A stretch of 64,000 nucleotides of DNA from an uncultured Clostridia bacterium (GTDB lineage: Bacteria > Bacillota > Clostridia > Oscillospirales > Acutalibacteraceae): assembly GCA_904399395.1 (NCBI GenBank), contig CAJFPJ010000003.1, positions 1-64,000 on the forward strand, in the 5' to 3' direction. The position numbers and the translations under genes were made by a program. The notes beneath the pieces are model-generated. The model was given only the letters and a program-made list of their open reading frames with translations, searched no databases and was not told the origin of the DNA. Position 1 is the stretch's first letter. Each line of letters opens with the position of its first letter. Positions 6,051-18,688 of this stretch are shown one piece after another.

Positions 6051-7301
6051 TCATAGCTCATATTCCCGCAGGCTACCCGCCAGCCTTTCTGCTACAGACA
6101 CCCGCATATGCAAGCCTTCCGGCAGATATTCTTCCTCTTCCACTCGTCCTTCCTTTCGAATACGGGCTGCCAGCCCACTTTGGGAAAAAGGAAGAAGAAT
6201 TTCCAGCTCCTTCATTTTTTCCGGTAAGCTCTCTTCAATAGCAGAAAGGAGATCATCTATTCCACGGCCGCTCAAAGCGCTGATCCGCACGGCTTTTCCG
6301 ATCATAGGCGCCTCCCAAAGTGCCGGGACCAAATCGCATTTGTTAAGCACAGAAATCACCGGCCTGTCACCACATCCCAGTTCCCCCAGAAGATTGCGGG
6401 TAACTTCCAGATGCACCTGCGCCTCTGGGCTGGAAGCATCACAAACGTTCAGGATCACATCCGCCAAAGCGGCCTGCTCCAAAGTGGAATGGAAGGCCTG
6501 CACCAAATGATGGGGCAATCTGCGCACCAACCCCACGGTATCGATCAGCATAACGCTTCTTCCACAAGGAAGCCGAAGAGCCCTGGCCGTGGGATCCAAC
6601 GTGGCGAAAAGCTTATTTTCTGCCAGAACGCCCGCCTGGGTGAGAAGATTCATCAAAGTGCTTTTTCCTGCATTGGTATATCCTACCAGGGCCACAGTGA
6701 TAACGCCGTCCTTTTTCCGGCGGGCGTTCTGCTGCTCCCTGTGCTTTTCCACAGTATTCAGCTTTTCTTTCAGAGCCTCTATTCTTCTGCGGATATGCCG
6801 CCTGTCCGTTTCCAGTTTCGTTTCGCCGGGGCCTCTTGTGCCAATGCCGCCTCCTAGGCGGGAAAGCTTCGTCCCCATGCCGGAAAGGCGCGGGAGAAGA
6901 TACCTAAGCTGGGCCAGCTCCACCTGCAGCCGTCCCTCCCGGCTTCTGGCCCGAGCAGCAAAAATATCCAGAATCAGCATGGTGCGGTCTATGGTGCGCA
7001 CATGGCTTGCAGCTTCGATATTGCGAATCTGGGTAGGCGTCAGTTCTCGGTCAAAAATCAGAAGATCCAGTTCATGGGCCTCACACATAGAGGCGATTTC
7101 CTCCATCATGCCGGATCCCACACAGGTGGCTGTATCCGGCGCCGGGCGCTTTTGGGTCACAGCTCCGAAGGGCACAGCCCCTGCACTGCGCACCAGTTCA
7201 TAAAGCTCTGCCAAAGAGGCCTCTGCGTCGTATTCTCCCGTATCCACCTCCACCAGCAGCGCCTTTTCCGGTTCCATTTTCATTTCTGTCAGTTCTGCCA
7301 T
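6051..7301 (-). CDS. hflX: GTPase HflX
   Basis: HflX is a ribosome-associated GTPase that binds the 50S subunit and can split stalled or hibernating ribosomes. The 416-residue protein has the N-terminal HflX domain with the conserved GGGIGTRGPGETKLE linker motif, a coiled segment, then the G domain with Walker A GYTNAGKST, G3 DTVGLVR (D-x2-G), and NKCD for guanine binding. I take ATG at 7301, preceded by AGGAGG at 5 bases, over an in-frame GTG 15 bases earlier that overlaps the site. A promoter is seen upstream. It is a single gene with its own terminator. Confidence 0.95.
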   Translation of the reverse strand: MAELTEMKMEPEKALLVEVDTGEYDAEASLAELYELVRSAGAVPFGAVTQKRPAPDTATCVGSGMMEEIASMCEAHELDLLIFDRELTPTQIRNIEAASHVRTIDRTMLILDIFAARARSREGRLQVELAQLRYLLPRLSGMGTKLSRLGGGIGTRGPGETKLETDRRHIRRRIEALKEKLNTVEKHREQQNARRKKDGVITVALVGYTNAGKSTLMNLLTQAGVLAENKLFATLDPTARALRLPCGRSVMLIDTVGLVRRLPHHLVQAFHSTLEQAALADVILNVCDASSPEAQVHLEVTRNLLGELGCGDRPVISVLNKCDLVPALWEAPMIGKAVRISALSGRGIDDLLSAIEESLPEKMKELEILLPFSQSGLAARIRKEGRVEEEEYLPEGLHMRVSVAERLAGSLREYEL

Positions 7302-7462
7302 AGATGCCTCCTGCACGCTTGTACATATTTATGCTATAAATGCAGTGTTTATGCGTATGCGAGGGATGTATCCCTTTTTACATATGCACGTTTTCCTACT
7401 CTCTGATTTTCGGTATGGTCACTTTTCGGCATACCGAACGGCCTTCTGTATCTTCTTTTTAC

Positions 7463-7504: not shown

Positions 7505-7562
7505 CCACAAAAACTCCCCTGTTTCCCAACGTCCCTCCATGTGAGAGAGCGGAAACAGGGGA
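7505..7562 (-). terminator. terminator at the 3' end of the phage-like block
   Basis: A perfect 12-bp stem TCCCCTGTTTCC/GGAAACAGGGGA with a 24-base loop is followed on the minus strand by GTTTTTG. It lies about 90 bases after the last phage-type gene. Confidence 0.6.
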
Positions 7563-7649
7563 TACTACAATGCTGCTGCCTTTAAACCTCTTTTCGTTTA
7601 GCTGAAGATACTTATTTCTTTTTATAAGAGAAAATTTTTCCTCATGCCT

Positions 7650-8111
7650 TTACCGGAGAGCGGCCCAAAAGTACACGCTTCCCGCCTGATTAAGGCAGAT
7701 TTTCTGGCCGCCCGCCGGAGGTTCCGACTGGGACTGCGCAATAGACAGAGTCTGCCCGCTGAGGCTCACTCCCGCCGTCCCGTTGGAAGGTGCTGCCAGG
7801 CCTGCATGAATCTCTGTGACAGCCCCCGAAAGAGAAATCGGAGCCGCCGAACTTTGAGCTATAATCACAATCTTTGGAACAAAAGGCAGCAAAATCTGCT
7901 GCTCGGCCTCTCCGTCCCCTTCATAGGTTCCCGCTGCAGAGCCCGCAAGATATTTTCGCTCTTCGTTTGTAAGATGAAGGCTTTGATCAGAAAAATGGCC
8001 GGAAAGCAAGGTGTCCAGAAGGGTGTTATCTCCACAAAAGTCCTCTCGCGCCGGTTTATCCTGAGCCTTCCAATTGTTCAGCCCCAAGGACGTTTTCTCA
8101 CTGGATGGCAA
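7650..8111 (-). CDS. short phage tail-fibre/collar-like protein
   Basis: The 153-residue product starts with LGLNNWKAQDKPAREDF, close to the N terminus that attaches PBSX-type and Clostridium phage tail fibres to the baseplate, followed by a small beta-rich, Ser/Gly/Ala-rich C-terminal part. It is much shorter than a receptor-binding fibre and lacks collagen-like repeats. The start is TTG at 8111 with AGGAGG 7-8 bases upstream. It is the last gene of the block and follows the DUF2313 gene after a 96-base gap containing a hairpin. Confidence 0.6.
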   Translation of the reverse strand: MPSSEKTSLGLNNWKAQDKPAREDFCGDNTLLDTLLSGHFSDQSLHLTNEERKYLAGSAAGTYEGDGEAEQQILLPFVPKIVIIAQSSAAPISLSGAVTEIHAGLAAPSNGTAGVSLSGQTLSIAQSQSEPPAGGQKICLNQAGSVYFWAALR

Positions 8112-8186
8112 TCTTCTCCCTCCTTTTTAGAGTCAATCTCTCCGTATATTCTCAAATATACTCTCTATCCACGTTTATACACTTCG

Positions 8187-8214
8187 CCGGGCTTTACGCC
8201 CGGATTTTTATTTT
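8187..8214 (+). terminator. plus-strand terminator inside the phage block
   Basis: CCGGGC-TTTAC-GCCCGG followed by ATTTTTATTTTA reads as an intrinsic terminator on the plus strand, opposite to the genes. On the minus strand the same hairpin lacks a T run and would only punctuate the message between the DUF2313 and fibre genes. Confidence 0.5.
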
Positions 8215-8795
8215 ACTGGGATTTCCACAATCCCGCTTCCCAGAGAATGTATAGCCTGCCAGCTCATAGAGGCATTATCCATCTGTTGCCAGGAGTATCC
8301 TTTTTCCTCTATATCTTGCCAGCTCAGGGGCCTGCAATCCAGGTACATTCGCAGATGGGCCGGAACAAATCCTCCTATGGAGCGTTTAAACCGAGAAATT
8401 TCTTTCTCCTCCGGCGTTCCTTCTGTCATGCAGCAGATTCTTCCCGGCTCCTCCGCAATGGATATGGGAACTCCCATTGCTTCTGCCGCCCGCTGAAGGC
8501 CGCCCTTGCTTCCCGGAACAGCGGAAACACGCAGCAAAAGCCTTCTGCGCCGTTCCTCTTCTGCGAGCCCTTCCCCACAAACTCCCAGAAGGCTCTCCCA
8601 AAGGGAGAGAGCTTCTTCTCTCGCTGTCTCCGGAAAGGAATTCTCCAAAAATCCCTTTACCTGCTTATAGAACGGTTCCAACCCCGCGGCATAAGCCTCC
8701 AGTTCCCAATCCAAGGCTGTACCTGCTGTCTGCCCGCTGAAAGTATAAAGACCTGTTTCCGCCATTCGCAGGCGCATGGATTCCAAGGGCGTCAT
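8208..8795 (-). CDS. DUF2313 (YmfQ/XkdU-like) baseplate protein
   Basis: Proteins of this family are small tail proteins lying after baseplate J in PBSX and Mu-like phages, probably part of the baseplate wedge. The 195-residue product fits the usual length of about 190-200, has an LYTF N terminus, an acidic helical middle region with LLLRV, and a PAHLRMYLDCR segment near residue 150 like other members. A Trp-rich tail (SWQDI, SWQQM, SWQAI) is unusual and looks like three short repeats. Its ATG overlaps the baseplate J stop as ATGA. Confidence 0.75.
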   Translation of the reverse strand: MTPLESMRLRMAETGLYTFSGQTAGTALDWELEAYAAGLEPFYKQVKGFLENSFPETAREEALSLWESLLGVCGEGLAEEERRRRLLLRVSAVPGSKGGLQRAAEAMGVPISIAEEPGRICCMTEGTPEEKEISRFKRSIGGFVPAHLRMYLDCRPLSWQDIEEKGYSWQQMDNASMSWQAIHSLGSGIVEIPVK

Positions 8796-9859
8796 GCTTT
8801 TGCCTCCTCTAAAACAATCTCCCCGCAGGCAGCTGCCTGATCCCTGGAAATCTCCACATCTGTCGTCACTTTGCTGTCAAAGGTCACGTTCCACACAGCT
8901 CCCGTGCCGATCATTGCCGCTGCCAGAGCAGATGTGTGGAACTTTCTCCCCACCTCTATGGATTTGAAAAATTCCCCAATGGCTTTCCGGCAGACTTCCG
9001 AAGCTCTCTCCAGGCTCCAGCCCGGCTGAAGGGAAAGAACCGCCTTCACAGGAATCTTTATCCGTTCCGCAGAAGAGATTTCCAGCGTCACCCCAAGCTC
9101 TCGCTTTTCTTCCAGCTCCCTGCGAATCTCCTCTAGATCTGTCTCTTTCAAACCAACATCCCGGCCGTCTATATAGATTTCTAGAGCTCCGCTCCCGGAG
9201 GCAGCGGGAACTACCGAAACGGAACGGACAGACGGATGACTCATTACAAACTGTCTGTAATAAGAGATATTGCCGCCCTGAGGCGGATACTCGATCATCT
9301 GCAGCAGCCTCCGTCTGAGGCTTTCGTCCGTCTCCGTGTCCTCTCCCCCTGAAAAAGCAGAGGGATTCGTCACTCCCTCAATGCCCACGGGAACCGTCAC
9401 CAGCTCTGTAACACTCCCCGCCGCCGCATTTCCCTTTTCTCCGGAAAGTTCCGCTTCCGCCTCCGCATCCACGCTGGTGCTTCCCTGAGGAAGCACTACC
9501 TTCTGCAACGTGATATACCGGGCTCCGTTTTCCCCTTCTGCGGCGCAAACTGTTCCGGCGGGGATCTCTATATCATACCAGGAAGGGGAAAGAATCGAGA
9601 ATCTCAGCTTTCCCTTTGCTTTCAGGGCTTCCCTACGGAATACGCCCCTTTCCCTCGCCAGGGATTCCAACTCTGCGCCCACTGCCGTATAGGGATTTTT
9701 CTGCTTTTTCAGCCATTCCACTGCGGCCATGCAGGAATACAACTCCCCTGCCAGCACCCGGATGCGTATATCCGTATCCGAAGCATAACGGGGTGAAAAG
9801 CCTGCCAGCTCTTCATACCGTCTTTCCATGCGCTCTACAAGCGCCTCATAGCTTTCCAT
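8792..9859 (-). CDS. baseplate J/gp47 family protein
   Basis: Baseplate J forms the wedge of contractile-tail baseplates. The 355-residue product shows the family pattern: N-terminal helical segment with SDIDRI-like SDTDIRIRVLAG, an AEGENGARYITLQ beta region, a GVTNPSAFSGGEDTETDESLRRRLL segment near 190-215 (the conserved N-P-x-x-x-x-GG-x-D-x-E-x-D-E-x-x-R motif) and PPQGGNISYYRQ. Start at 9859 has AGGAGGTGAACC ahead of it. The frame is complete, which matters because sheath and tube genes are missing upstream. Confidence 0.9.
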   Translation of the reverse strand: MESYEALVERMERRYEELAGFSPRYASDTDIRIRVLAGELYSCMAAVEWLKKQKNPYTAVGAELESLARERGVFRREALKAKGKLRFSILSPSWYDIEIPAGTVCAAEGENGARYITLQKVVLPQGSTSVDAEAEAELSGEKGNAAAGSVTELVTVPVGIEGVTNPSAFSGGEDTETDESLRRRLLQMIEYPPQGGNISYYRQFVMSHPSVRSVSVVPAASGSGALEIYIDGRDVGLKETDLEEIRRELEEKRELGVTLEISSAERIKIPVKAVLSLQPGWSLERASEVCRKAIGEFFKSIEVGRKFHTSALAAAMIGTGAVWNVTFDSKVTTDVEISRDQAAACGEIVLEEAKA

Positions 9860-9864
9860 CTGGT

Positions 9865-10233
9865 TCACCTCCTGATTTTTACAGTGCGGCAGCCCCCCGG
9901 AAGCCGCAGCTCCACAAGACACAGATCGTCTTTCCATTCCGCATGAATCGGTTCCGCCTCCGGGATACGCTGAAGAGCCTCCCTGGCTGCCTCCAGAAGC
10001 TCCGCCGGGTCGCTCGTTTCCCGCAGCCGGCTTCCCAATCCGCTTTCATAGACAAAGCTTCCCATGGGGACGGAAAGGCATATTCCAGCTCTTTGCAAAA
10101 GCTCATCTTCCCCGGATATAGAAAAAGGCATTCCTCTGCCGTCCGTTTTCAGGCCTCCCATAAAATCAAGAGCCGTATCAAAAGGCTCACAAATTCCCGC
10201 CTCAGGCCCGTTTTCATCTCTCATGCAATGCAC
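9865..10233 (-). CDS. DUF2634 (XkdS-like) baseplate wedge protein
   Basis: DUF2634/gp25-like proteins form part of the baseplate wedge of PBSX-like phages. This 122-residue product carries the typical acidic FDTALDFMGG start, an ED-LLQRAGICL segment like the family LRTQRGE region and YESGLGSRL near residue 70. I chose GTG at 10233 because GGAGG lies 9 bases ahead; an ATG 9 bases later (10224) is the alternative. It begins 2 bases after the preceding stop and ends 5 bases before baseplate J. Confidence 0.72.
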   Translation of the reverse strand: MHCMRDENGPEAGICEPFDTALDFMGGLKTDGRGMPFSISGEDELLQRAGICLSVPMGSFVYESGLGSRLRETSDPAELLEAAREALQRIPEAEPIHAEWKDDLCLVELRLPGGCRTVKIRR

Positions 10234-10235
10234 AA

Positions 10236-10598
10236 TCAGCCGCCTCCCTCTTCTTCCGCTTGCAGAGGAGGGAATACCTGCCCGTTGATTTCCACCTGCC
10301 CATTGTTTTTCAGATGGATCCGGGCGCCCCCTTTTGAGAAAAGCAAAAGCTCCCCCGGTTCCACCATACCTTCTTCCGGCTTTTCCATCACAGTACCCAC
10401 GCATGCTATGCCCTGACGGGTCTCAACCGTGACTGCCTGCGCGTAGGAGGGCGGTGTATACGCGACCCCCCAAGGGCCGCAGTATACTACACGGGTCCTA
10501 TCGTTTCCGGCATCCTCTTCCCCGGGGGAGCGGATGCGGGACACATCCGCCGCGGGCCGTTTTTTCCCGGCTTCCACAATCTGTTTTGATATCCACAT
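10236..10598 (-). CDS. baseplate assembly protein V / DUF2577-like
   Basis: This 120-residue protein lies where XkdR (DUF2577) or a gpV/gp45-type spike protein is expected. It has a putative OB-like strand region (VVYCGPWGVAY; GIACVGTVMEKPEEGMVEPGEL) and a C-terminal GGARIHLKNNGQVEING segment characteristic of spike and baseplate V proteins. The ATG immediately follows the XkdQ-like stop codon and a ribosome site AGGTGG lies within that gene end. The choice between gpV and DUF2577 is uncertain. Confidence 0.6.
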   Translation of the reverse strand: MWISKQIVEAGKKRPAADVSRIRSPGEEDAGNDRTRVVYCGPWGVAYTPPSYAQAVTVETRQGIACVGTVMEKPEEGMVEPGELLLFSKGGARIHLKNNGQVEINGQVFPPLQAEEEGGG

Positions 10599-11594
10599 TT
10601 ATACATCCACCTCTTTTTTTCGCAACGTGTACCGACAACGTTCCCCCGAAGAAGAAAGGCTGTAGCGCAGGCCGGAAACATACAGCCCGGAAATCTCTTT
10701 CCCCCAGTTTGGTAGCGTAAGGCAGACAGCCGCCCCTACCCCCGCCTCAGGAAGGCCGGGAGACAAAACCTCAGCACAAAAAGCTCTTCTTGCAGCTTTT
10801 ACAAGCGCCTCCCTGGCCTGTTCCGTGCTTCCGCTTAAAAGTCTTCTGCGCCGGATTCCCAAACTCTTTGCTTCTCCGTCAAAAACAGAAAGGGCAAAAG
10901 TTTCCGTATTTTCCGGCTTCACCAGAATTTCGGAATATCGCTCGCACATTTTATCCTCTGCAGAGCACTCCAGTATAGGAATCTCTCTCCCAAACTGCAG
11001 AAGAGGAAATTCTTCCTTTCTTTCCTCGAGCGCCTCCAGTCTTTTTCCCCTGGCCCGTAAGGAAACCTTCAGATACCGGCTGCAGAAAAGGGAAAGGACC
11101 TCCCATTCGCTCATGCCCTTGGTTATTGTAAAAGGAACAGAAAATCCGCTGGGTTCTCCCTCCCATTCTGTAAACCCATAGGGCTTCCCGTGCCGTTCAA
11201 AGAGAAGGGGGAGGGATGGATACGCATACGTCTGTGGGATCGCTTCGTTATCCAGCAACAAAGCCGCCATGCTCCGGGCCACGATTTCCAGCATGCAGCC
11301 CTCCGAAGAAAATCTGCGCTGCAATTCGTCCACAGGGCCGAAGAAAACGACCTCCCCTCCTCCGCAAATTTCCAGAAAGACCGGTTCCAGCTCTTCATAA
11401 ATACTTTTCCAGGGGAATACGCCGGTGAAGGCGTCCGCCGGGGTATCCTCCTCTATGGAAAGCACAGCCTCAAGGGGGGCTCCCAAAGAGATACGCTTCC
11501 CCTGGGAATTGCACGCCGTATATGTATACCCGCCCGGCTGCAGATATCTCCCCCGAACTTTGCAACCAATACAGGCCCTCTCCATATTAGTCAC
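10599..11594 (-). CDS. XkdQ-like tail hub protein
   Basis: XkdQ/YqbQ proteins are the baseplate hub of PBSX-type tails, structurally like gpD/gp27, with a hub beta-barrel start and late OB-like domains. The 331-residue length agrees with the family (about 325-330). An LEIVARSMAALLLDNEA segment near residue 90 matches the family S-x-x-A-x-LLDNEA-like motif, and TLPNWGKEISGLYVSGLRYSLSS lies near the C terminus. The start GTG at 11594 overlaps the LysM gene stop (GTGA) with GGAGG 8 bases ahead; the later ATG (11585) is too far from that site. Confidence 0.75.
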   Translation of the reverse strand: MTNMERACIGCKVRGRYLQPGGYTYTACNSQGKRISLGAPLEAVLSIEEDTPADAFTGVFPWKSIYEELEPVFLEICGGGEVVFFGPVDELQRRFSSEGCMLEIVARSMAALLLDNEAIPQTYAYPSLPLLFERHGKPYGFTEWEGEPSGFSVPFTITKGMSEWEVLSLFCSRYLKVSLRARGKRLEALEERKEEFPLLQFGREIPILECSAEDKMCERYSEILVKPENTETFALSVFDGEAKSLGIRRRRLLSGSTEQAREALVKAARRAFCAEVLSPGLPEAGVGAAVCLTLPNWGKEISGLYVSGLRYSLSSSGERCRYTLRKKEVDV

Positions 11595-12112
11595 AGCGTC
11601 CGCCTCCCGGCTCTGAGAATTGTTCCCTCTTCCAGATCGTTGATCCAGGGATTCCGATTCTGCTCCAGCAGTATTTCCAGAGGGACGTTCATCGCCGCCG
11701 AGGCTCTCCATAGGGAGTCATGCTCCCTGCAGGCATACGCCGCTCTCTTTTCTTCCGCCGGCGGGACATCCTCCTCCACAAAGGAAAAGGTATAATGGGT
11801 CTCCCCCGGGCGCCCCAGCGCTTGCAGCTGCAAAGAGGAAAAGACGGCTCTGAGGGGCGGGAGGCCCGGCATGACAAGCAAGCCGGCTCCTCCCTCTTCA
11901 AACAGTCTCTGAAGTTCCCGAAACTGTAGGAGGGAATCCCTCCCCAGAAAACAGCCTTTGCCGGAAATCTGCCGCTTTTTCCGGCCCATCTCCTGCAAGA
12001 GGGAGCCCTTAAGAGGCAGCGGCTGTTCCTTCAGATTCCTGCTGCAGGTAATCGTAATCTCCGAAGGGTTCACATTCCACCGGAACCCCTTATACGCCAT
12101 CTGCAGACTCAT
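11591..12112 (-). CDS. LysM-domain tail protein (XkdP-like)
   Basis: XkdP-type proteins pair an N-terminal tail-tube initiator/hub-binding domain with a C-terminal LysM domain and normally follow the tape measure. The 173-residue product has the RWNVNPSEITI start typical of the family and an AYACREHDSLWRASAAMNVP LysM helix region near 128-150, ending in a short NDLEEGTILR strand. ATG overlaps the stop of the small 36-codon gene as ATGA. It is on the shorter side for the family. Its presence with no tape measure upstream is odd. Confidence 0.72.
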   Translation of the reverse strand: MSLQMAYKGFRWNVNPSEITITCSRNLKEQPLPLKGSLLQEMGRKKRQISGKGCFLGRDSLLQFRELQRLFEEGGAGLLVMPGLPPLRAVFSSLQLQALGRPGETHYTFSFVEEDVPPAEEKRAAYACREHDSLWRASAAMNVPLEILLEQNRNPWINDLEEGTILRAGRRTL

Positions 12113-12219
12113 GCTTCCTCCTCCAAATCCAGGCCGCGGGGAAAGCGCCGGGCCTCCCGCTCAATCTCCCGGGAGAGTCGTTCCGCTTCCGTGCCCTGTT
12201 TTTCCAGAATCTCCTCCAT
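12109..12219 (-). CDS. 36-residue protein at the head/baseplate junction
   Basis: This small gene lies where the sheath-to-tape-measure cassette should be. It encodes 36 residues, starts MEEILEKQ, is rich in Glu and Arg, is predicted helical and ends in LDLEEEA. Support for translation is an AGAGGAGGG site 7 bases before the ATG and the ATGA overlap with the LysM gene. The frame stays open upstream to about 12290, and a second ATG (12255) would give 48 residues. I do not recognise it. Acidic/basic helical peptides of this sort occur in tail regions, so it may be a small tail gene or a translational coupler. Confidence 0.6.
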   Translation of the reverse strand: MEEILEKQGTEAERLSREIEREARRFPRGLDLEEEA

Positions 12220-12310
12220 CTTGTTCCCTCCTCTGTTTCGTTTCCAATGTCCCATCTGCTCCAAGAAGCATTCATTTTCTTTTTTATTCCATCATAAAAG
12301 CCTCTGATTT

Positions 12311-12598
12311 TCAGCCTCCTGAGAAGGCTCCCTGCTCTTCTCGCAGCACTGCCCAGTCATAGAGCTTTTTTCCTCCCAAAAAAGCCCCATCCCCCCGAAG
12401 GACCACAAGGTGCTTTTCACCCCAGCAAACCTTCTCTCCAGGAGTCAGGCCGCTTCCTGCGGGGGCTGCACACCAGTATTCCTCACCATTTTCCTGAGTT
12501 TTCCGCAAAGGACGCAGAAGCGCCCGGGTCTTATTTTCTCCGATATTTACCGGGCTCCCGTATTTCCGAATGGCATATTCCACAGTAAGAGAGCTCAC
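12311..12598 (-). CDS. small head-completion-like protein
   Basis: The 95-residue product follows the connector gene, where head-closure (gp8/gp10/XkdH-like) proteins occur. It begins SSLTVEYAIRKYGSPV and has a beta-rich second half (CAAPAGSG, KHLVVLRGDGAFLGGKKLYDW). The start GTG (12598) overlaps the preceding stop (GTGA). The family is not recognised with certainty. An AGGAGG motif sits exactly at its stop codon but no proper gene follows within 90 bases, which suggests that the next gene has been removed. Confidence 0.55.
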   Translation of the reverse strand: MSSLTVEYAIRKYGSPVNIGENKTRALLRPLRKTQENGEEYWCAAPAGSGLTPGEKVCWGEKHLVVLRGDGAFLGGKKLYDWAVLREEQGAFSGG

Positions 12599-13008
12599 AC
12601 TGCACCCCTCCCGTTTCCTTTCCCCCAGCCGGACACAAACTGCTGCGGTATCCGCTGAAATACAAATTCTGTATCCCGAAAGCATTCTGCCGCCCCGTCT
12701 CGATATTCTTCCCAAATTTTTCTAGCCTGCTCCGTCATGGAGGCACCCTTTTTCACCTGTATATCCCCAGAAGAAAAGCTTTCCGGTGTGCGTGCCCCTT
12801 CCAGAAGGCTCCATCGGTAAAAGGCCAGCGCCGCGGCAGCCCCATACAGCAGGCTTTCTTCCCTCTCGGTGAGAGATTCCTTGGCCATGCCGTTCACTTG
12901 GGCCGCCGCATCCTGGCAAAGGCCGTGGTACCGCCGGGCCTCCTCTTCCGACAGGCCGGAGAAAGAGGAAAAGCGCTCCATAAGGGCCTCTATATTCCAC
13001 TTCATCAT
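12595..13008 (-). CDS. head-tail connector protein (gp6-like)
   Basis: Connector proteins bind below the portal and complete the DNA-packed head. The 137-residue product is helical with FSGLSEEEARRYHGLCQDA and EESLLYGAAAALAFYRWSL, the pattern of short connector proteins that follow the capsid gene. Its ATG overlaps the capsid stop. Identification rests on position, size and pattern rather than on a definite motif. Confidence 0.6.
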   Translation of the reverse strand: MMKWNIEALMERFSSFSGLSEEEARRYHGLCQDAAAQVNGMAKESLTEREESLLYGAAAALAFYRWSLLEGARTPESFSSGDIQVKKGASMTEQARKIWEEYRDGAAECFRDTEFVFQRIPQQFVSGWGKGNGRGAV

Positions 13009-14021
13009 GCGCTCTTATAGGTGAGGATCTTGCACGCGCCGTCAAAGATTCGCGAAAATCCTGTAATCGTGCTGATCACCGCCCGCTCCAGCTGCCTGTC
13101 GATGAGCTTATCCGATTCCGTGATAATGTCCCCGGTCTGAACCATCTCCAGGGCGCAGGTCTTATCCAGAGCAATAATTTTCTTCTCCTCCAGGCCCGGT
13201 ACATGGATCAGATTGGCACCCAGAGGTGTGATGAGCTTACCCGTTCCCTGGAAGGTGAGCCCTGCCTGGGAATCCTGGAACTGAGTGATTCCCAGAAGAT
13301 CTTTCATGGCGGCCGTGGAAGCCAAAGCCGTATTCATGGAATAGGGCGCCAGTGCCCCCCAAAGAGAGACCATATCCCCATAATCGGGGGTGTTGCCGGC
13401 GGTGGAAATAGAGCCGGCTGGGCTCTTTCCGTCATCCCCTTGCATCAGCACTTGGATGGCATCCTTCAGCTGCGCTCTGGCAATATATGCTCCGATCTGG
13501 CGCAGAGTCACAGTGAAGAGATCCAACTTTTGAAAGCGGATAGCCTCATAGGAAGAAACCAGCATCCTACCCCGTTTCTGCAGTTTCACCAGTGTGCTTT
13601 TCGTCTTCACCACCGTCTCAGGAATCGCCGCGCCCTCCGCCACCGGTTTCAGAGTCTTGTCATCTTCTGAAAGATCCGAAGTGATGGTGCGATAATCCAT
13701 GCCGTCGATTTTCGTCACCGTGGCTACGATAGAAGGGAGCACGTCCGCCTGCTCCATGCCCTGGCGCACAGCCCGGCTCACATATTCCGGGAAGAGAGCA
13801 GCCGAAGACGAAGTCTGAAAAAACTTTTCCACTGGGTCGGAGCCCACTCCTCCCACGCGGATATCAAAACGTTTCAGCTGGCGCTGATAGGCGTCCATCC
13901 CCTCCAAAGCCGTTCCCTTATAGTTTTCTGAAGGATCCATTTCCTCCAGCAGCCGGGAAAAGCTCTTGTGCGGCACGGTGTACATGCCTTTTTCCAATGC
14001 GATCGATTCAAATCCTGCCAT
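13005..14021 (-). CDS. HK97-fold major capsid protein
   Basis: The shell protein of the phage head. The 338-residue product has a helical N arm (residues 1-55), a FFQTSSSAALFPEYVSRAV segment near 68-86 that marks the start of the folded domain, E-loop region with VAEGAAIPETVV near 130, the spine helix around 155-190 and a C-terminal TGDIITESDKLIDRQLERAV segment typical of Clostridium/PBSX-like (XkdG-type) capsid proteins. GAGGAGG precedes the ATG. The length is normal and no disruption is visible. Confidence 0.88.
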   Translation of the reverse strand: MAGFESIALEKGMYTVPHKSFSRLLEEMDPSENYKGTALEGMDAYQRQLKRFDIRVGGVGSDPVEKFFQTSSSAALFPEYVSRAVRQGMEQADVLPSIVATVTKIDGMDYRTITSDLSEDDKTLKPVAEGAAIPETVVKTKSTLVKLQKRGRMLVSSYEAIRFQKLDLFTVTLRQIGAYIARAQLKDAIQVLMQGDDGKSPAGSISTAGNTPDYGDMVSLWGALAPYSMNTALASTAAMKDLLGITQFQDSQAGLTFQGTGKLITPLGANLIHVPGLEEKKIIALDKTCALEMVQTGDIITESDKLIDRQLERAVISTITGFSRIFDGACKILTYKSA

Positions 14022-14051
14022 TTCAATTCCTCCTCATCTTTTATATCCGCA

Positions 14052-14420
14052 TCATAAAATGATGCCGGCTGTCTGGGCGGTTGTATCCACAGCCGCCACC
14101 AAATGCTCTCTGCCCTTGGAAAATGCCTGCTCACTCTGCCCAATAGTAGCTGTTTTCACACCGCCGCTTCCGTCTGCACAAAGGAGCTGGTAACCCACCG
14201 CGGGGGCTGTCCCCGAATAAGAAATTTCTGCATAGCCCTCCAACTGGACGGCGGCAAAACCTCCCCTGCAGGAAAGAACCACACCCGCGAACTTATCTCC
14301 TGCACTGCAGGCGGAGACCTGCCCATTGCCAGAAACTTTTACTACGCTTCCGGCTTCTAAATCAGAGGCCGCTTCAAAAGTTGCCACACGTTCTTTCCAT
14401 CCCTTAAATGATACTGTCAT
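14052..14420 (-). CDS. DUF2190-type capsid decoration protein
   Basis: This 122-residue beta-rich protein lies between protease and capsid genes, the usual place for head decoration/stabilisation proteins such as DUF2190 or gpD. It starts MTVSFKGWKERVATF and contains LEAGSVVKVSGNGQV and DKFAGVVLSCRGGFAAVQLEGYAEI, the pattern of DUF2190 proteins. It is followed after 30 bases by the capsid gene. Confidence 0.68.
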   Translation of the reverse strand: MTVSFKGWKERVATFEAASDLEAGSVVKVSGNGQVSACSAGDKFAGVVLSCRGGFAAVQLEGYAEISYSGTAPAVGYQLLCADGSGGVKTATIGQSEQAFSKGREHLVAAVDTTAQTAGIIL

Positions 14421-14467
14421 GTGCTTTCTCCCTCTCTTGTTTTCTTTATTATGGTTTTCTCTTATGT

Positions 14468-15592
14468 TCAGATAGCATAGGGATTTTGGTTTTCCCTCCC
14501 TGCTTTCTCTTTTTCCATGGTCTTATCCCATTTTTCCGGGGCCAGTTGGGGCCGCAGAGGATAGCTTTTTTCCGCTGTACCCATAAACGCTTTCTCCACC
14601 GCCTTCAGGTCTTCCAGGGAAAGCCCTTCCGTCATCCGGCAAAGGGCTCCCTCCTCCAGATTGGGGAAAACCAGGCCGCCCAGCCTGCGGATATTTTCCC
14701 GCAGCTGCGTCTGATACGCCCTGCCTGCTGACGCATCCTTTTCCAAATTTTCTAGGTAGGCGGCCAGTTTTTCACACTCCTCACCGGAAAACCGGAGGCC
14801 ATCCTGAGCCTTCCGAAGTTCTTTTGCCAGCTCCGTATGTGCCGCTCCTTCCTTCCATACCATATTCAAGTCTCCTTTCCTTCTCTCCTCCCAGGAAAAA
14901 CGCTTGATAACGCCCGCTTCCCGTTGAGCGGGCACCGTCACAAAGGACCATTCATAGGCGTCTGTGGGTTCTTCCAATATATCCACACAGAGTCTCCCAT
15001 CATATACATGCCCCTTTCGATGAGAGCAGGGAGTGGTTTTCCTATCCGCTCCGCAGATGGAGCACACTTGCTTTTTTACCGCACAGCCGACGCTCACCTC
15101 CTTTTGAATGCCGCTTTCCAAAGCCAGGATCAATCGGTCATTTTCCCCTCCTCTGGGGAGGTACGCCCGGGCCACAAGGCGGGTGTAAGGCTCCCCAGCC
15201 TCTGTCTTCCTGCCGGAAACGGTCTCCACCCGGCAGTTGAAGATCCTGGCCGCCTGATTCCTGGCGTCGGGCGTATGGTTGAAGATCCCCGTTTTTCCCC
15301 GGAAAAGCTCTGCCAACTTTTGAAGAGCCGGTATACTGAAGCGTTCCAGATCCCTGTCCGTTTCATTGTCACAGAGCACCACCGTAAAAGCATAGAGCTC
15401 CTCCGGGCCGAATTTTCGGCGGGTGTATTCTCCGATCTGTTCCATTTCCTCCGGTGCGGGTACTCCGGTTTCCAAGGCATCCTTTCCGCTTTCTGGATTT
15501 TCCTCCCAAGAATCCGGCGCACTCTTTGCTTTTTCCGGATATGCTTTTTCCTGGAATATGAGATCCCCATTCCCAACATATTGTTTGATCAT
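14468..15592 (-). CDS. prohead protease with C-terminal scaffold-like region
   Basis: The 374-residue product appears to be the maturation protease joined to a scaffolding segment, as in XkdF-type proteins. The N-terminal half is the protease-like domain. Its second half (about residues 245-340) is charged and helical with ELAKELRKAQDGLRFSGEE, as expected for a scaffold removed during maturation. An unusual CSICGADRKTTPCSHRKGH cluster near residue 178-196 resembles a small zinc-binding insertion. The ATG overlaps the portal stop (ATGA). Confidence 0.68.
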   Translation of the reverse strand: MIKQYVGNGDLIFQEKAYPEKAKSAPDSWEENPESGKDALETGVPAPEEMEQIGEYTRRKFGPEELYAFTVVLCDNETDRDLERFSIPALQKLAELFRGKTGIFNHTPDARNQAARIFNCRVETVSGRKTEAGEPYTRLVARAYLPRGGENDRLILALESGIQKEVSVGCAVKKQVCSICGADRKTTPCSHRKGHVYDGRLCVDILEEPTDAYEWSFVTVPAQREAGVIKRFSWEERRKGDLNMVWKEGAAHTELAKELRKAQDGLRFSGEECEKLAAYLENLEKDASAGRAYQTQLRENIRRLGGLVFPNLEEGALCRMTEGLSLEDLKAVEKAFMGTAEKSYPLRPQLAPEKWDKTMEKEKAGRENQNPYAI

Positions 15593-16827
15593 GCTTTTTC
15601 ATCTCCTTTCAAAATAGATTTTTCCAACTGCATGGCCCTGGCATTGAGCCACCGGGCATTGGCATTCTCAGTCTCATCCTGCAGAGTGATCTCATCCCAC
15701 AGGATTTTAAACCGCCGGGAATTCCCCTCCAGCCGCAGCCACAAACCGCATATTTTCCGGATGGCAGGCTCCAGAAGCCTCCTGTAAAATTCCAGCTCGC
15801 TGGTAAGGATATCCGCCTGTTGGCTGGACATTCTCTCTGTGGAAGACCAGGAGAGCCCCAGCAGAAAGGGGGGAATTCCCAGCTTTGCCACGATTTGCTC
15901 CAGCATCTGGCGCACAGGTATCTCGCTTTCCAGAATAGTACCATCTGCCCCGATAGTTTGGATGGAAACGTCTCCCACTGCCACAAAATCTGAGGGGGCA
16001 TCGTTCTGCATGGCCTTCCGCCATTCCCTCGCTATCTGAGACGCCCTTTCCCGGGCAAAGGCTCTATCTCCGTCGTCTCCCGGCTTATAGGTTACGGCAA
16101 AACGAACATCTCCCACCCGCTCCCAATTTAGGCCCATGCTGCGATAAATTTTCAGCAGAATCTCCGAAACAAAAGGCAGGCTTCTCAGAAGGGAAGTGCC
16201 CCAGGGCTTACCTGGTTCCGGATGCATGGCCGTGGAGAACACCAGCTCCGGCCATCGGAGAGGCTTGACCGCCCCATTTTCCCGGGCATAGATTTTCAGT
16301 TGCAAAGGTGATTCCTGCCGCAGCTCCACATCCTCCAGAGCTGCATTATATAAAGCCCCGATGGAGCCTGTGGAATCAAGGACAATTTCCCCCACCGCCG
16401 TTCCATAAAGCAGAAGCTGCTCCAGATAGGAATCCAAAAAACTCTGAAGCCCCCGCTGGGCTCCATTTACAGGGACAGAGTGCAAAAATTCATCCAGTCG
16501 GCCCTGATCCGCCGGAGAATCGCATTCCACTTGAAATCCCCCTGCCAGGCGAATGATCTTCCCAATGGCAGCATCTATAATGGGGACATGATCCCTCAAA
16601 GCTTTGTAAAGATGCCATTCCCCAGGATCCGGCGCCGGAGCAAAGAATGCACTTTCCCCGCTCTGAAATCGAAAAAGTTCCCTGGCTCCCGTCTGTACAG
16701 CCTTTACAGGAATTTCCGGCAAACCTCCCTCCTCTGTATTTCCGGTCTTTGGCCTGCGGGAAAAGAGAATGCCCCGTTTCCACAATCCGGTTCCCGTCCA
16801 AAGTCCCTTAGTCTTCTCTTTCTGCAA
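15589..16827 (-). CDS. phage portal protein
   Basis: The portal dodecamer is the DNA gate of the head. The 412-residue product has DHVPIIDAAIGKIIRLAGG near the N terminus, the long helical stem region with FLDSYLEQLLLYGTAVGEIV, and a MLEQIVAKLGIPPFLLGLSWSS segment near 315 that is characteristic of SPP1/PBSX-type portals. The start is TTG at 16827 with GGAGG 5 bases upstream, and it overlaps the terminase gene by 20 bases. Confidence 0.88.
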   Translation of the reverse strand: MQKEKTKGLWTGTGLWKRGILFSRRPKTGNTEEGGLPEIPVKAVQTGARELFRFQSGESAFFAPAPDPGEWHLYKALRDHVPIIDAAIGKIIRLAGGFQVECDSPADQGRLDEFLHSVPVNGAQRGLQSFLDSYLEQLLLYGTAVGEIVLDSTGSIGALYNAALEDVELRQESPLQLKIYARENGAVKPLRWPELVFSTAMHPEPGKPWGTSLLRSLPFVSEILLKIYRSMGLNWERVGDVRFAVTYKPGDDGDRAFARERASQIAREWRKAMQNDAPSDFVAVGDVSIQTIGADGTILESEIPVRQMLEQIVAKLGIPPFLLGLSWSSTERMSSQQADILTSELEFYRRLLEPAIRKICGLWLRLEGNSRRFKILWDEITLQDETENANARWLNARAMQLEKSILKGDEKA

Positions 16828-18094
16828 AATATCCTCCCCTTTCTACCGTCAGCACCGGTGCGCCTGTATCCTCCTTTTCCAAAGGAAGCAGCGTGCTTAC
16901 AAAATACCGGATATCATCCATGGCGTGGTCGTTTTCCTTTACCGGCACATCTCCTGGTTTTCCCTCCGCCCAGCGATAGAGACCAAACTCCCGGATAGCG
17001 TCCCTGCATGTGCTGCAGATGCGAATCCGCCCCTCCTTCAGAGCCACACTCACCTGTCGGATCCCATCCAGCACCTGGTTTTTGGCCGGGATCACCCGAA
17101 ACTTTCCATGCCGCAACACCGTCTGTATAAAGCTAGCCGCGGATGGATCCACCGCCATGCACTCCATCTCATGAACGCCTTCCCGTTCCAATAGTTTCTC
17201 CAGCGCCCGGTAGTGCTCCTCATCCGTCCGGGATATACCCTCTTTTCTGGAATCGTAATAGTACTCGTTCAGCCTGTACCATACATGCTTCCATTCTCCC
17301 CAGAGGCCAAAAGAAGAGGGATTCACCGTGCCGTAGTCACAGGAGAGCCGAAATCGGCTGCAGCGAGAGGGTGGAGAGCAAAAAGCTCCTTCTCCCATAA
17401 AGGGATACACCAATCCATGGGTCTCCGCCCATTCTCCCAGAATAAACCGTCTGTAAAAGGGGCCTGAATATAGGCTCTGATAGCGCAGCCGCATTTCCCG
17501 GCTCAGGGATGGATTATCCTCCATGGTGAAATGGAGATACAGAGCGTTCTTTTCATCCGCTTTGCGGATCCATTCCTGATAAAACCAGTGCTGGGGATTT
17601 TCCGGGTTACAGTTGAACCAGAAGCGGCTCCCCTCTACGGAGCACCGGGCCAGAGCCTGCTCTATAAAGGAGCGGGGCATCAGGGCGGCTTCATCCAGAA
17701 ATACGCCGGAAAGGGTAATCCCCTGAATGAGCGCAGCGCTTCCCTCATCCCGTCCGCCGAAGAGATAAAACCAATTTTTTCGGCCCCCGTATGCTATAAG
17801 AAGCAAATTCTCTGTCTCTTTGTATGTGCAGGAAAAGCCCTCCTTCCGAAGGACGGGCAGAAGTGTTCCCATCAGATTTCGCTTCAGAGAACGGATCGTC
17901 TTTCCGCAGAAGGCAAAAACGGCCCCTTCAAACTGCCAAAAAGCCCAAAGGACGAAACCCAGTCCCATGCAGAGAGTCTTCCCACTGCGCACCGCGCCGT
18001 CGCAGATAATCGCTGTTTTCTCCGAAAAAGGGCATTCTGGCTCCCACCAATTCATAGCAAGAAGCTGCTTCTCTGAAAAAGCCTTAATCTCCAT
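16808..18094 (-). CDS. terminase large subunit
   Basis: This is the DNA-packaging motor. The 428-residue protein carries Walker A GAVRSGKT (residues 33-40), Walker B-like GVFLDEAAL near 130, and nuclease-domain acidic motifs: LSCDYGTVNP, MAVDPSAASF and a late NDHAMDDIRYF, as in PBSX XtmB-like terminases. I place the start at 18094 (AAGGAG 5 bases ahead); an upstream in-frame ATG at 18118 is possible. It overlaps both neighbours. ATPase and nuclease motifs look complete. Confidence 0.92.
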   Translation of the reverse strand: MEIKAFSEKQLLAMNWWEPECPFSEKTAIICDGAVRSGKTLCMGLGFVLWAFWQFEGAVFAFCGKTIRSLKRNLMGTLLPVLRKEGFSCTYKETENLLLIAYGGRKNWFYLFGGRDEGSAALIQGITLSGVFLDEAALMPRSFIEQALARCSVEGSRFWFNCNPENPQHWFYQEWIRKADEKNALYLHFTMEDNPSLSREMRLRYQSLYSGPFYRRFILGEWAETHGLVYPFMGEGAFCSPPSRCSRFRLSCDYGTVNPSSFGLWGEWKHVWYRLNEYYYDSRKEGISRTDEEHYRALEKLLEREGVHEMECMAVDPSAASFIQTVLRHGKFRVIPAKNQVLDGIRQVSVALKEGRIRICSTCRDAIREFGLYRWAEGKPGDVPVKENDHAMDDIRYFVSTLLPLEKEDTGAPVLTVERGGYFAERED

Positions 18095-18545
18095 TCTCTC
18101 CTTCCTCCATTCCTCCACTACATTGATCTTCTGTATTCGGCTTCTTTCCCGCTAGAAGGAGCGCACTTTCCCGCAGCGCTTCATATAAAGGCCGAATTTT
18201 TTCACCATCCCGGCCGTTTTCCGCCTCCATCAGGCATTGAAGGGCCTTCAGTCTATCATAGAATTTCACCTCTACCTGTCCATCTTTCCCTCGTTTCAGC
18301 TCCGAAACTGTGTATAAATCCAGATCCATTGTATCCAAAGCTTTTATATCTTCAGGAGTACTGTATAAAAGGCGAACGGCATCGCGGATATCCCCAAAGG
18401 CCAGGCGGCGCAAGCCATCCTCAGCCGTTTCCTTCGGCTTTTCTTTTCTCTCGCGTTTCCTCTCCGACTTCATTTCGATTCTTTCCGGCCGTTTTTTGGG
18501 CAGAATCTTCTTTCTCTCCCCCGCAGAATTCCGTTCTTCCCTCAA
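18084..18545 (-). CDS. terminase small subunit (probable)
   Basis: The first gene of the block encodes 153 residues with a strongly basic N terminus (runs of K/R/E), then GLRRLAFGDIRDAVRLLY and a helical VKFYDRLKALQCLMEAE segment. Position, size and the EVKFYDRLKAL segment, which resembles PBSX XtmA-type proteins, support a small terminase, which recognises the packaging site. The start TTG at 18545 has AGGAGG 9 bases ahead; a GTG at 18566 is the alternative but lies on top of the site. No promoter is obvious in the 95 bases before it. Confidence 0.65.
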   Translation of the reverse strand: MREERNSAGERKKILPKKRPERIEMKSERKRERKEKPKETAEDGLRRLAFGDIRDAVRLLYSTPEDIKALDTMDLDLYTVSELKRGKDGQVEVKFYDRLKALQCLMEAENGRDGEKIRPLYEALRESALLLAGKKPNTEDQCSGGMEEGENGD

Positions 18546-18640
18546 AACCGGATAACCTCCTTTCACCTATCCCCCAAACAGAGGGGAAACTTACCCTGCC
18601 GAAGGAAACATTTAAAAAAATATTTTCAATATGCGATAAA

Positions 18641-18688
18641 ATGCAAAAAGGGTATCCCGCCGTTTTACGGGATACCCTTTTCATTTTT
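18641..18688. terminator. bidirectional terminator separating DUF5317 operon and phage block
   Basis: A 14-bp stem AAAAGGGTATCCCG/CGGGATACCCTTTT with an 8-base loop has T runs on both sides. On the minus strand it insulates the phage block from upstream chromosomal transcription. Confidence 0.85.

Follow-up and report, generated by a model that had tools for sequence, protein, structure and literature searches.

What does a bacterial lineage keep when the head and baseplate genes of a contractile phage stay in its genome and the tail shaft between them does not? The question is raised by a block of phage structural genes in a stretch of 64,000 nucleotides (the window; positions 1-64,000 of contig CAJFPJ010000003.1, assembly GCA_904399395.1) from an uncultured Clostridia bacterium (Acutalibacteraceae, Oscillospirales), whose genome is referred to below as G000. 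From sequence comparisons, the block is probably a vertically inherited phage-structural locus whose shaft appears to have been lost stepwise and which is likely to be gene-transfer-agent-like.

Sixteen open reading frames (ORFs) run on the minus strand from the start of terS at 18566 to the end of a fibre gene at 7650 (Table 1), with a G+C content of 0.54 against 0.52 for the window. Head and neck genes are followed by a micro-ORF and then by contractile-type baseplate genes, with no sheath or tube gene between them. The first-pass annotation, made from the DNA letters, had described a head and baseplate without a tail shaft, all frames open, with terminators on both sides. This description was borne out: all 16 frames are intact, and the block lies between a terminator-like stem-loop and a hairpin with a T run. 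The junctions, described as tight overlaps, overlap or lie no more than 5 nt apart in 11 of 15 cases, but the remaining four are gaps of 30-96 nt. The LysM, XkdQ, baseplate J and DUF2313 families were confirmed, but they do not follow the connectors directly, as the micro-ORF intervenes. Fifteen of the 16 ORFs were searched against Pfam and PHROGs and 10 against NCBIfam; the micro-ORF was outside these searches. Among the 15, no integrase, replication or regulator family was found with Pfam or PHROGs, and lysis, integration and regulation genes, reported missing from the block, were indeed not detected there. A structural cluster without integration, replication and regulation genes is what a gene transfer agent (GTA) would present.

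The loss of the shaft extends beyond the block. The sheath and tube profiles A5 and A4 gave no match in the whole of G000, where control profiles matched, so neither gene was detected elsewhere in the genome. Pfam model PF04984 (sheath) also gave no match in G000, and this model also misses the divergent sheath of genome G036. Neither sheath nor tube was found in any of the seven tubeless genomes searched (7/7, controls positive).

The tape measure had also been taken as absent. A full-length gene is indeed missing, but a likely remnant of 36 residues is left, and the absence is probably incomplete. In the seven sheath-bearing loci of family f14 that were examined, the slot before the LysM gene holds an ORF of 159-229 residues, taken from its position to be the tape measure. 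The C-terminal end of this protein is a motif such as RDARRYDG, which is shared by the short ORFs of sheathless loci. A hidden Markov model (HMM) of the motif matched 74 of 114 loci at an independent E-value (i-E) of 0.1 and none of 1296 control ORFs. Because these matches include the 43 loci on which the model was trained, two one-sided HMMs were made. The model from sheathless loci returned the slot ORF in 6 of the 7 f14 loci as the six top matches among 1596 ORFs. The model from f14 loci recovered the slot at 47 of 103 sheathless loci, and elsewhere among 23,556 ORFs it had no match. Similarity of the window micro-ORF to the C-terminal end of the longer protein found in the slot of sheath-bearing relatives makes it a likely remnant of that end; the tape measure is therefore probably not wholly absent. 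At three sheath-bearing f14 loci (L256:13331-13974, also L232 and L231) two overlapping ORFs lie between the tube gene and the slot, and these look like a tail-assembly chaperone pair of the programmed-frameshift kind.

The window represents one state in a series. Among 117 related loci, the head-to-baseplate order is present in 100. Sheath, tube and baseplate occur together in 11 loci, tube and baseplate in 65, a stopper-tube fusion in 8, a baseplate with no tube by HMM in 16, and a terminator-fibre fusion without baseplate in 3. Half of the tubeless loci (8 of 16) hold no unassigned ORF of 90 residues or more in the slot. All tail states sit at one and the same head-baseplate junction. Sheath, tube and a short tape-measure-slot protein are found together mainly outside the host family, and the tubeless state was found in at least three clades, namely the window genus and at least two others. 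The tail cassette had been said always to lie between head and baseplate in such phages; in this lineage the sheath is missing from 106 of the 117 loci. In a set of 106 loci, L024:7398-8504 (G036) is the only sheath, and it is the one missed by PF04984.

A clean recent deletion, one of the meanings first proposed, does not fit these data. The gap is common to all three congeners (G000, G001 and G002), across near-saturated synonymous divergence, and is found in other genera too. Close relatives with a tail cassette at this junction, no other genome with the gap and relaxed selection had together been named as the sign of such a deletion. Relatives do carry tail genes exactly at the junction, but other genomes share the gap and relaxed selection is unsupported.

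Some related loci depart further from the common order. A terminator fused to a fibre-tip domain, with no baseplate at the locus, was found at L029:8254-9180, L032:9519-10331, L035:8653-9465 and L028:2315-3154; the gene after the fusion in L029 and L035 is of metabolic or transport type. Loci L219-L222 (genera g78, g168 and g153 of family f26) carry a divergent capsid class and different short neck genes, and in L219 cobU and a secretion-ATPase gene come after a hub-like gene.

The block is vertically inherited with intact genes in the host clade, as would be required of a GTA. Among 60 near relatives, 26 have a capsid gene (25 of the 37 within the host family), as do 71 of 394 genomes sampled across the order, of which 35 are among the 43 of the host family. 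Elsewhere in the order the capsid was found in 36 of 351 genomes, and its distribution outside the host family is therefore patchy. A single capsid match without internal stops was obtained in 69 of the 71 carriers. One TGA in the capsid match of G002 (one of 26 matches) is, by its coordinates, the gene's own stop. Genome G335 has two capsid copies (L234 and L235), the second of which has no other block genes and is perhaps a true prophage. In G417 the capsid is present only as two 58-residue fragments (G417:C15 and G417:C29), which may reflect a broken assembly or a decayed copy. A tree of terL, portal and capsid shared 16 of 26 splits with the rpoB tree of the same 29 genomes, whereas 500 label permutations averaged 0.2 shared splits and never exceeded 2. 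The Mantel correlation of block and rpoB was 0.68 over the 29 genomes and 0.79 in 18 host-family genomes, with none of 5000 permutations as high. The host gene hflX is the next gene downstream, on the strand of the block, in 19 of 147 related loci from several genera (18 without one duplicate), with only 50% identity at L053. The ratio of nonsynonymous to synonymous substitution rates (dN/dS) against G001 was 0.03-0.22 in all block genes and 0.08 in the micro-ORF, values that are rough because synonymous sites are near saturation. The suggestion that the block is a domesticated particle kept by selection is supported by the mostly single copy, the open frames, the agreement with rpoB and the hflX-side site in several genera.

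Several results weigh against a GTA-like, vertically inherited locus. A capsid match is missing in 8 of the 43 family genomes and in 315 of the 351 others. Conflict between the two trees involves three rpoB splits and two block splits, all supported above 0.9, so some exchange is possible. The hflX linkage is a minority, most other loci sitting elsewhere. In the comparison with the more distant G002, the micro-ORF, LysM and DUF2313 genes have higher dN/dS values of 0.3-0.5, with synonymous divergence saturated and selection poorly measured. The sheath-bearing f26 loci L224, L226 and L227 lack the micro-ORF motif, which is also barely recognisable in the tubeless clade L059/L240. Searches of 15 block ORFs turned up no lysis gene, and no LexA-type box was seen within 434 bp upstream of the block. 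The N-terminal part of TerS, which would bear on packaging specificity (see below), is kept in 5 of 10 relatives, so its loss is not general. Finally, the lineage is known from its genes, from which the production of particles and the packaging and transfer of DNA are inferred.

A killing or adhesive particle of tailocin type, in which DNA in the head would be incidental, as has been discussed for PBSX, is an unlikely alternative. It would be compatible with the PBSX-type terminase and with the hub, spike-like and fibre-like genes of the baseplate. The sheath that powers R-type tailocins was nevertheless undetected in the genome. Between congeners, moreover, the hub and wedge genes have diverged more than terminase, portal and capsid, and at some related loci the head is kept and the baseplate is gone (from the locus itself; a second locus was not searched for).

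A particle for storage or salvage, in which DNA would be packed but not injected, for example repair material freed by lysis, was considered slightly less probable still. At L241, L253 and L217 only head and neck genes are left, with non-phage genes directly after them, as such a particle would allow. The window nevertheless retains a fibre-tip-like domain, which in L028, L029, L032 and L035 is joined to the terminator; this points to cell binding.

A decaying prophage, with its tail cassette deleted and the rest drifting, is very improbable. It would explain the missing integration, lysis, replication and regulation genes, the repeated variation of tail genes among relatives and the 8 of 43 family genomes without capsid, but not the capsid frames open across the order, the congruence with rpoB or the identical gap in three congeners; the loss is also centred on the shaft, with the head staying throughout and the baseplate in 100 of 117 loci. 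A phage satellite or capsid-forming island using the tail of a helper would account for head, packaging and neck genes without a shaft, but can be all but set aside given the block's own baseplate, the hflX-side site in several genera, a tree that follows the host, flanking genes that are of host type where they match a family, and the lack of integrase, replication and regulatory families in 15 ORFs.

For the favoured GTA-like locus, a DNA-filled head with the baseplate seated directly on the neck is predicted. A TerS lacking the part that recognises DNA would allow the terminase to pack host DNA into heads. On the neck, the stopper ring is predicted to sit on the LysM/hub complex; the micro-protein would take the position otherwise held by the baseplate end of the tape measure, and spike and fibre would bind a related cell. 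The baseplate is made of contractile-type parts, but no sheath or tube was found; such a particle could not contract and would deliver its DNA without contraction, as podoviruses do. Genes elsewhere in the genome would be needed for release and regulation. Other cells would receive pieces of the host's DNA from a tailless particle.

A wider proposal, which we hold at slightly less than even weight, is that of an order-wide GTA family in Oscillospirales that predates the host families in which it is found. Its contractile tail would have been dismantled stepwise: first the sheath, then the tape measure except for its C-terminal end, then the tube and in some lineages the baseplate. The outcome would be a new particle architecture, in which the neck of the capsid directly bears a contractile-type baseplate or nothing but a receptor-binding terminator.

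Table 1. Features of the block and its borders in the window, in order along the minus strand.
Feature	Position	Strand	Basis or remark
Terminator-like stem-loop	18644-18683	-	just upstream of block; stem-loop scan
terS, small terminase	18084-18566	-	PF03592 4.9e-7 (Terminase_2)
terL, PBSX-family large terminase	16808-18094	-	TIGR01547 2.3e-51; phrog_2 4.9e-46
Portal	15589-16827	-	phrog_30703 3.8e-128
Conserved head gene, protease/scaffold position	14468-15592	-	phrog_16951 4.6e-93 (unknown function)
Small head protein (decoration/scaffold-like)	14052-14420	-	phrog_4588 1.5e-27; phrog_673 1.6e-5
Major capsid protein	13005-14021	-	PF25209 9.9e-18; phrog_3922 4.9e-97
con1, head-tail connector (adaptor position)	12595-13008	-	conserved position, custom HMM
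con2, head-tail stopper	12311-12598	-	
Micro-ORF, 36 residues	12109-12219	-	one-sided f14 HMM i-E 1.3e-4; ATGA overlap with LysM gene
DNA_circ_N + LysM protein, tube-initiator/hub adaptor (XkdP-like)	11591-12112	-	PF07157 1e-6
Q, baseplate hub (Mu gp44/XkdQ-like)	10599-11594	-	phrog_177; family-profile PDB matches
R, central spike-like	10236-10598	-	family profile vs Mu gp45 puncturing device, 7.2e-4
S, sheath-initiator/gp25-like wedge	9865-10233	-	family profile vs PDB sheath initiator, 3.8e-4
Baseplate J wedge protein	8792-9859	-	PF04865 1.5e-41
DUF2313/Mu Gp48-like baseplate protein	8208-8795	-	PF10076 3.4e-5, under cut-off; phrog_521 3.8e-10
Gene g153, fibre-tip-like protein	7650-8111	-	N-terminal helix, C-terminal beta sandwich
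Hairpin + T run	7509-7561	-	downstream of block; read in sequence
hflX	6051-7316	-	host gene directly downstream of block; Pfam

The large terminase scored 175.4 bits against TIGR01547, above the cut-off of 105.05, and is of the PBSX family. The N-terminal part of TerS binds DNA; in the window the match to Terminase_2 begins at profile position 49 of 141, leaving the N-terminal part unmatched, which fits unspecific packaging without proving it. In the 10 relatives scanned, this part was kept in 5 and unmatched in 4, and one gave no match at all. The assignment of the conserved head gene as a protease was not upheld, since searches of Pfam, NCBIfam and the PDB yielded nothing to back it and the PHROGs family that it matches (Table 1) has no assigned function. 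A PDB search with con1 gave no match.

The baseplate inventory extends the first-pass annotation by the spike-like R and the sheath-initiator/gp25-like S. LysM was matched by the family profile of the DNA_circ_N protein, whose match to the phiCD508 tube initiator gp61 was weak (E 0.39). The Q family profile matched PDB entries 3d37 (1.9e-9) and 1wru (9e-8). PF10934 was found in 9 of 19 S homologues, the window's own copy being without a match; the genome, with no detectable sheath, still keeps this sheath-initiator-like protein. The block is flanked by hflX on one side and by a DUF5317 gene and an HD-domain gene on the other, and the flanking genes with a family match are host genes. The loop of the downstream hairpin is longer than the stem-loop scan allows.

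Relatives were also sought in public collections. A scan of named genomes returned at least 557 relatives, of which the best 80 are titled mostly Clostridia and include Caproiciproducens, Caproicibacter, Anaeromassilibacillus, Clostridium sporosphaeroides and rumen 'Ruminococcus' assemblies. Among cultured carriers, the loci of Caproiciproducens galactitolivorans (L047) and Clostridium sporosphaeroides DSM 1294 (L056) have a tube gene, whereas that of Anaeromassilibacillus sp. An250 (L051) is tubeless. Among 50,697 phage records there were 5 capsid matches, all to unannotated faecal 'Bacteriophage sp.' entries. Viral contigs gave 397 relatives, and the 80 listed among them are mostly short. 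Relatives stored as phages include L126-L205 (IMG/VR), MT835508.1 (L217), MT835952.1 (L218) and MT836604.1; the gene after the block relative in L217 is of the non-phage MCRA family. As virus collections list such loci as phages, virome studies may be misled.

To our knowledge, few GTA gene clusters have been described so far. The window holds a strong candidate for a long-kept, tail-reduced phage particle locus that is most likely GTA-like, and it offers a sequence-defined GTA candidate that many anaerobes, cultured or not, carry. How a contractile phage could become a tailless particle is suggested by the series, and the micro-ORF illustrates what a tape measure may retain once the tail is lost. 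In a 2026 gut survey, GTA-like packaging is reported in several Oscillospirales, with a strong operon candidate in one of the four genomes searched (PMC12946183). An order-wide family, if real, could explain such packaging reported without a gene cluster, as in Onthomonas.

In GTDB, Faecalibacterium belongs to the same order as the window host. The GTA of Faecalibacterium prausnitzii (FpGTA) is described in the same survey as particles of ∼40 nm with no visible tail and ∼9 kb of DNA, without replication genes, with operon I in 12 of 12 Faecalibacterium genomes examined and with baseplate, fibre and lysis genes in a second operon (PMC12946183). GTA-like packaging is also given there for Onthomonas, Gemmiger, CAG-115, Ruminococcus callidus and Christensenellaceae; of four assembled genomes (Onthomonas, Gemmiger formicilis and two F. 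prausnitzii), the strong operon candidate came from one F. prausnitzii (PMC12946183). Block and FpGTA are alike in having head genes and no replication genes. FpGTA particles were seen to be tailless; the block, known from its genes, has head and baseplate in one operon, unlike FpGTA with its separate baseplate operon. Genus g151 was taken to be Faecalibacterium from homologues of the MAM protein in 3 of 4 sampled genomes. Terminase loci were found in all four, with a gene content resembling the published description of FpGTA I, to which they were provisionally equated. Neither the block capsid profile nor the PBSX terminase model matched any of the four genomes, and block HMMs gave weak TerL matches only, with no capsid or portal match, at the five terminase loci. 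As far as these searches go, the block is not homologous to FpGTA I, capsid and portal matches being missing at the presumed FpGTA I loci. FpGTA, set apart by way of them, and the window lineage appear to be separate captures, and on the best reading the block is an element of PBSX descent, apparently unrelated to FpGTA.

PBSX of Bacillus subtilis has a sheath, a tube and a long tape measure, and its genes follow the order head, neck, LysM, XkdQ-like, baseplate J and DUF2313-like. The block shares this order and the PBSX-family terminase. Host fragments of 13.4 kb are packaged by PBSX (PMC12946183). The block differs in that sheath, tube and full tape measure are missing and its shaft genes are reduced to the likely 36-residue remnant. 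Sheath and tube are retained in extracellular contractile injection systems and R-type tailocins, which have no heads. The baseplate of the block resembles theirs in its hub, spike-like, sheath-initiator-like and J wedge proteins, but the block is otherwise the reverse, a head without sheath or tube. The RcGTA of Rhodobacter capsulatus is a host-maintained structural cluster, and in being a structural cluster kept by its host the block is like it.

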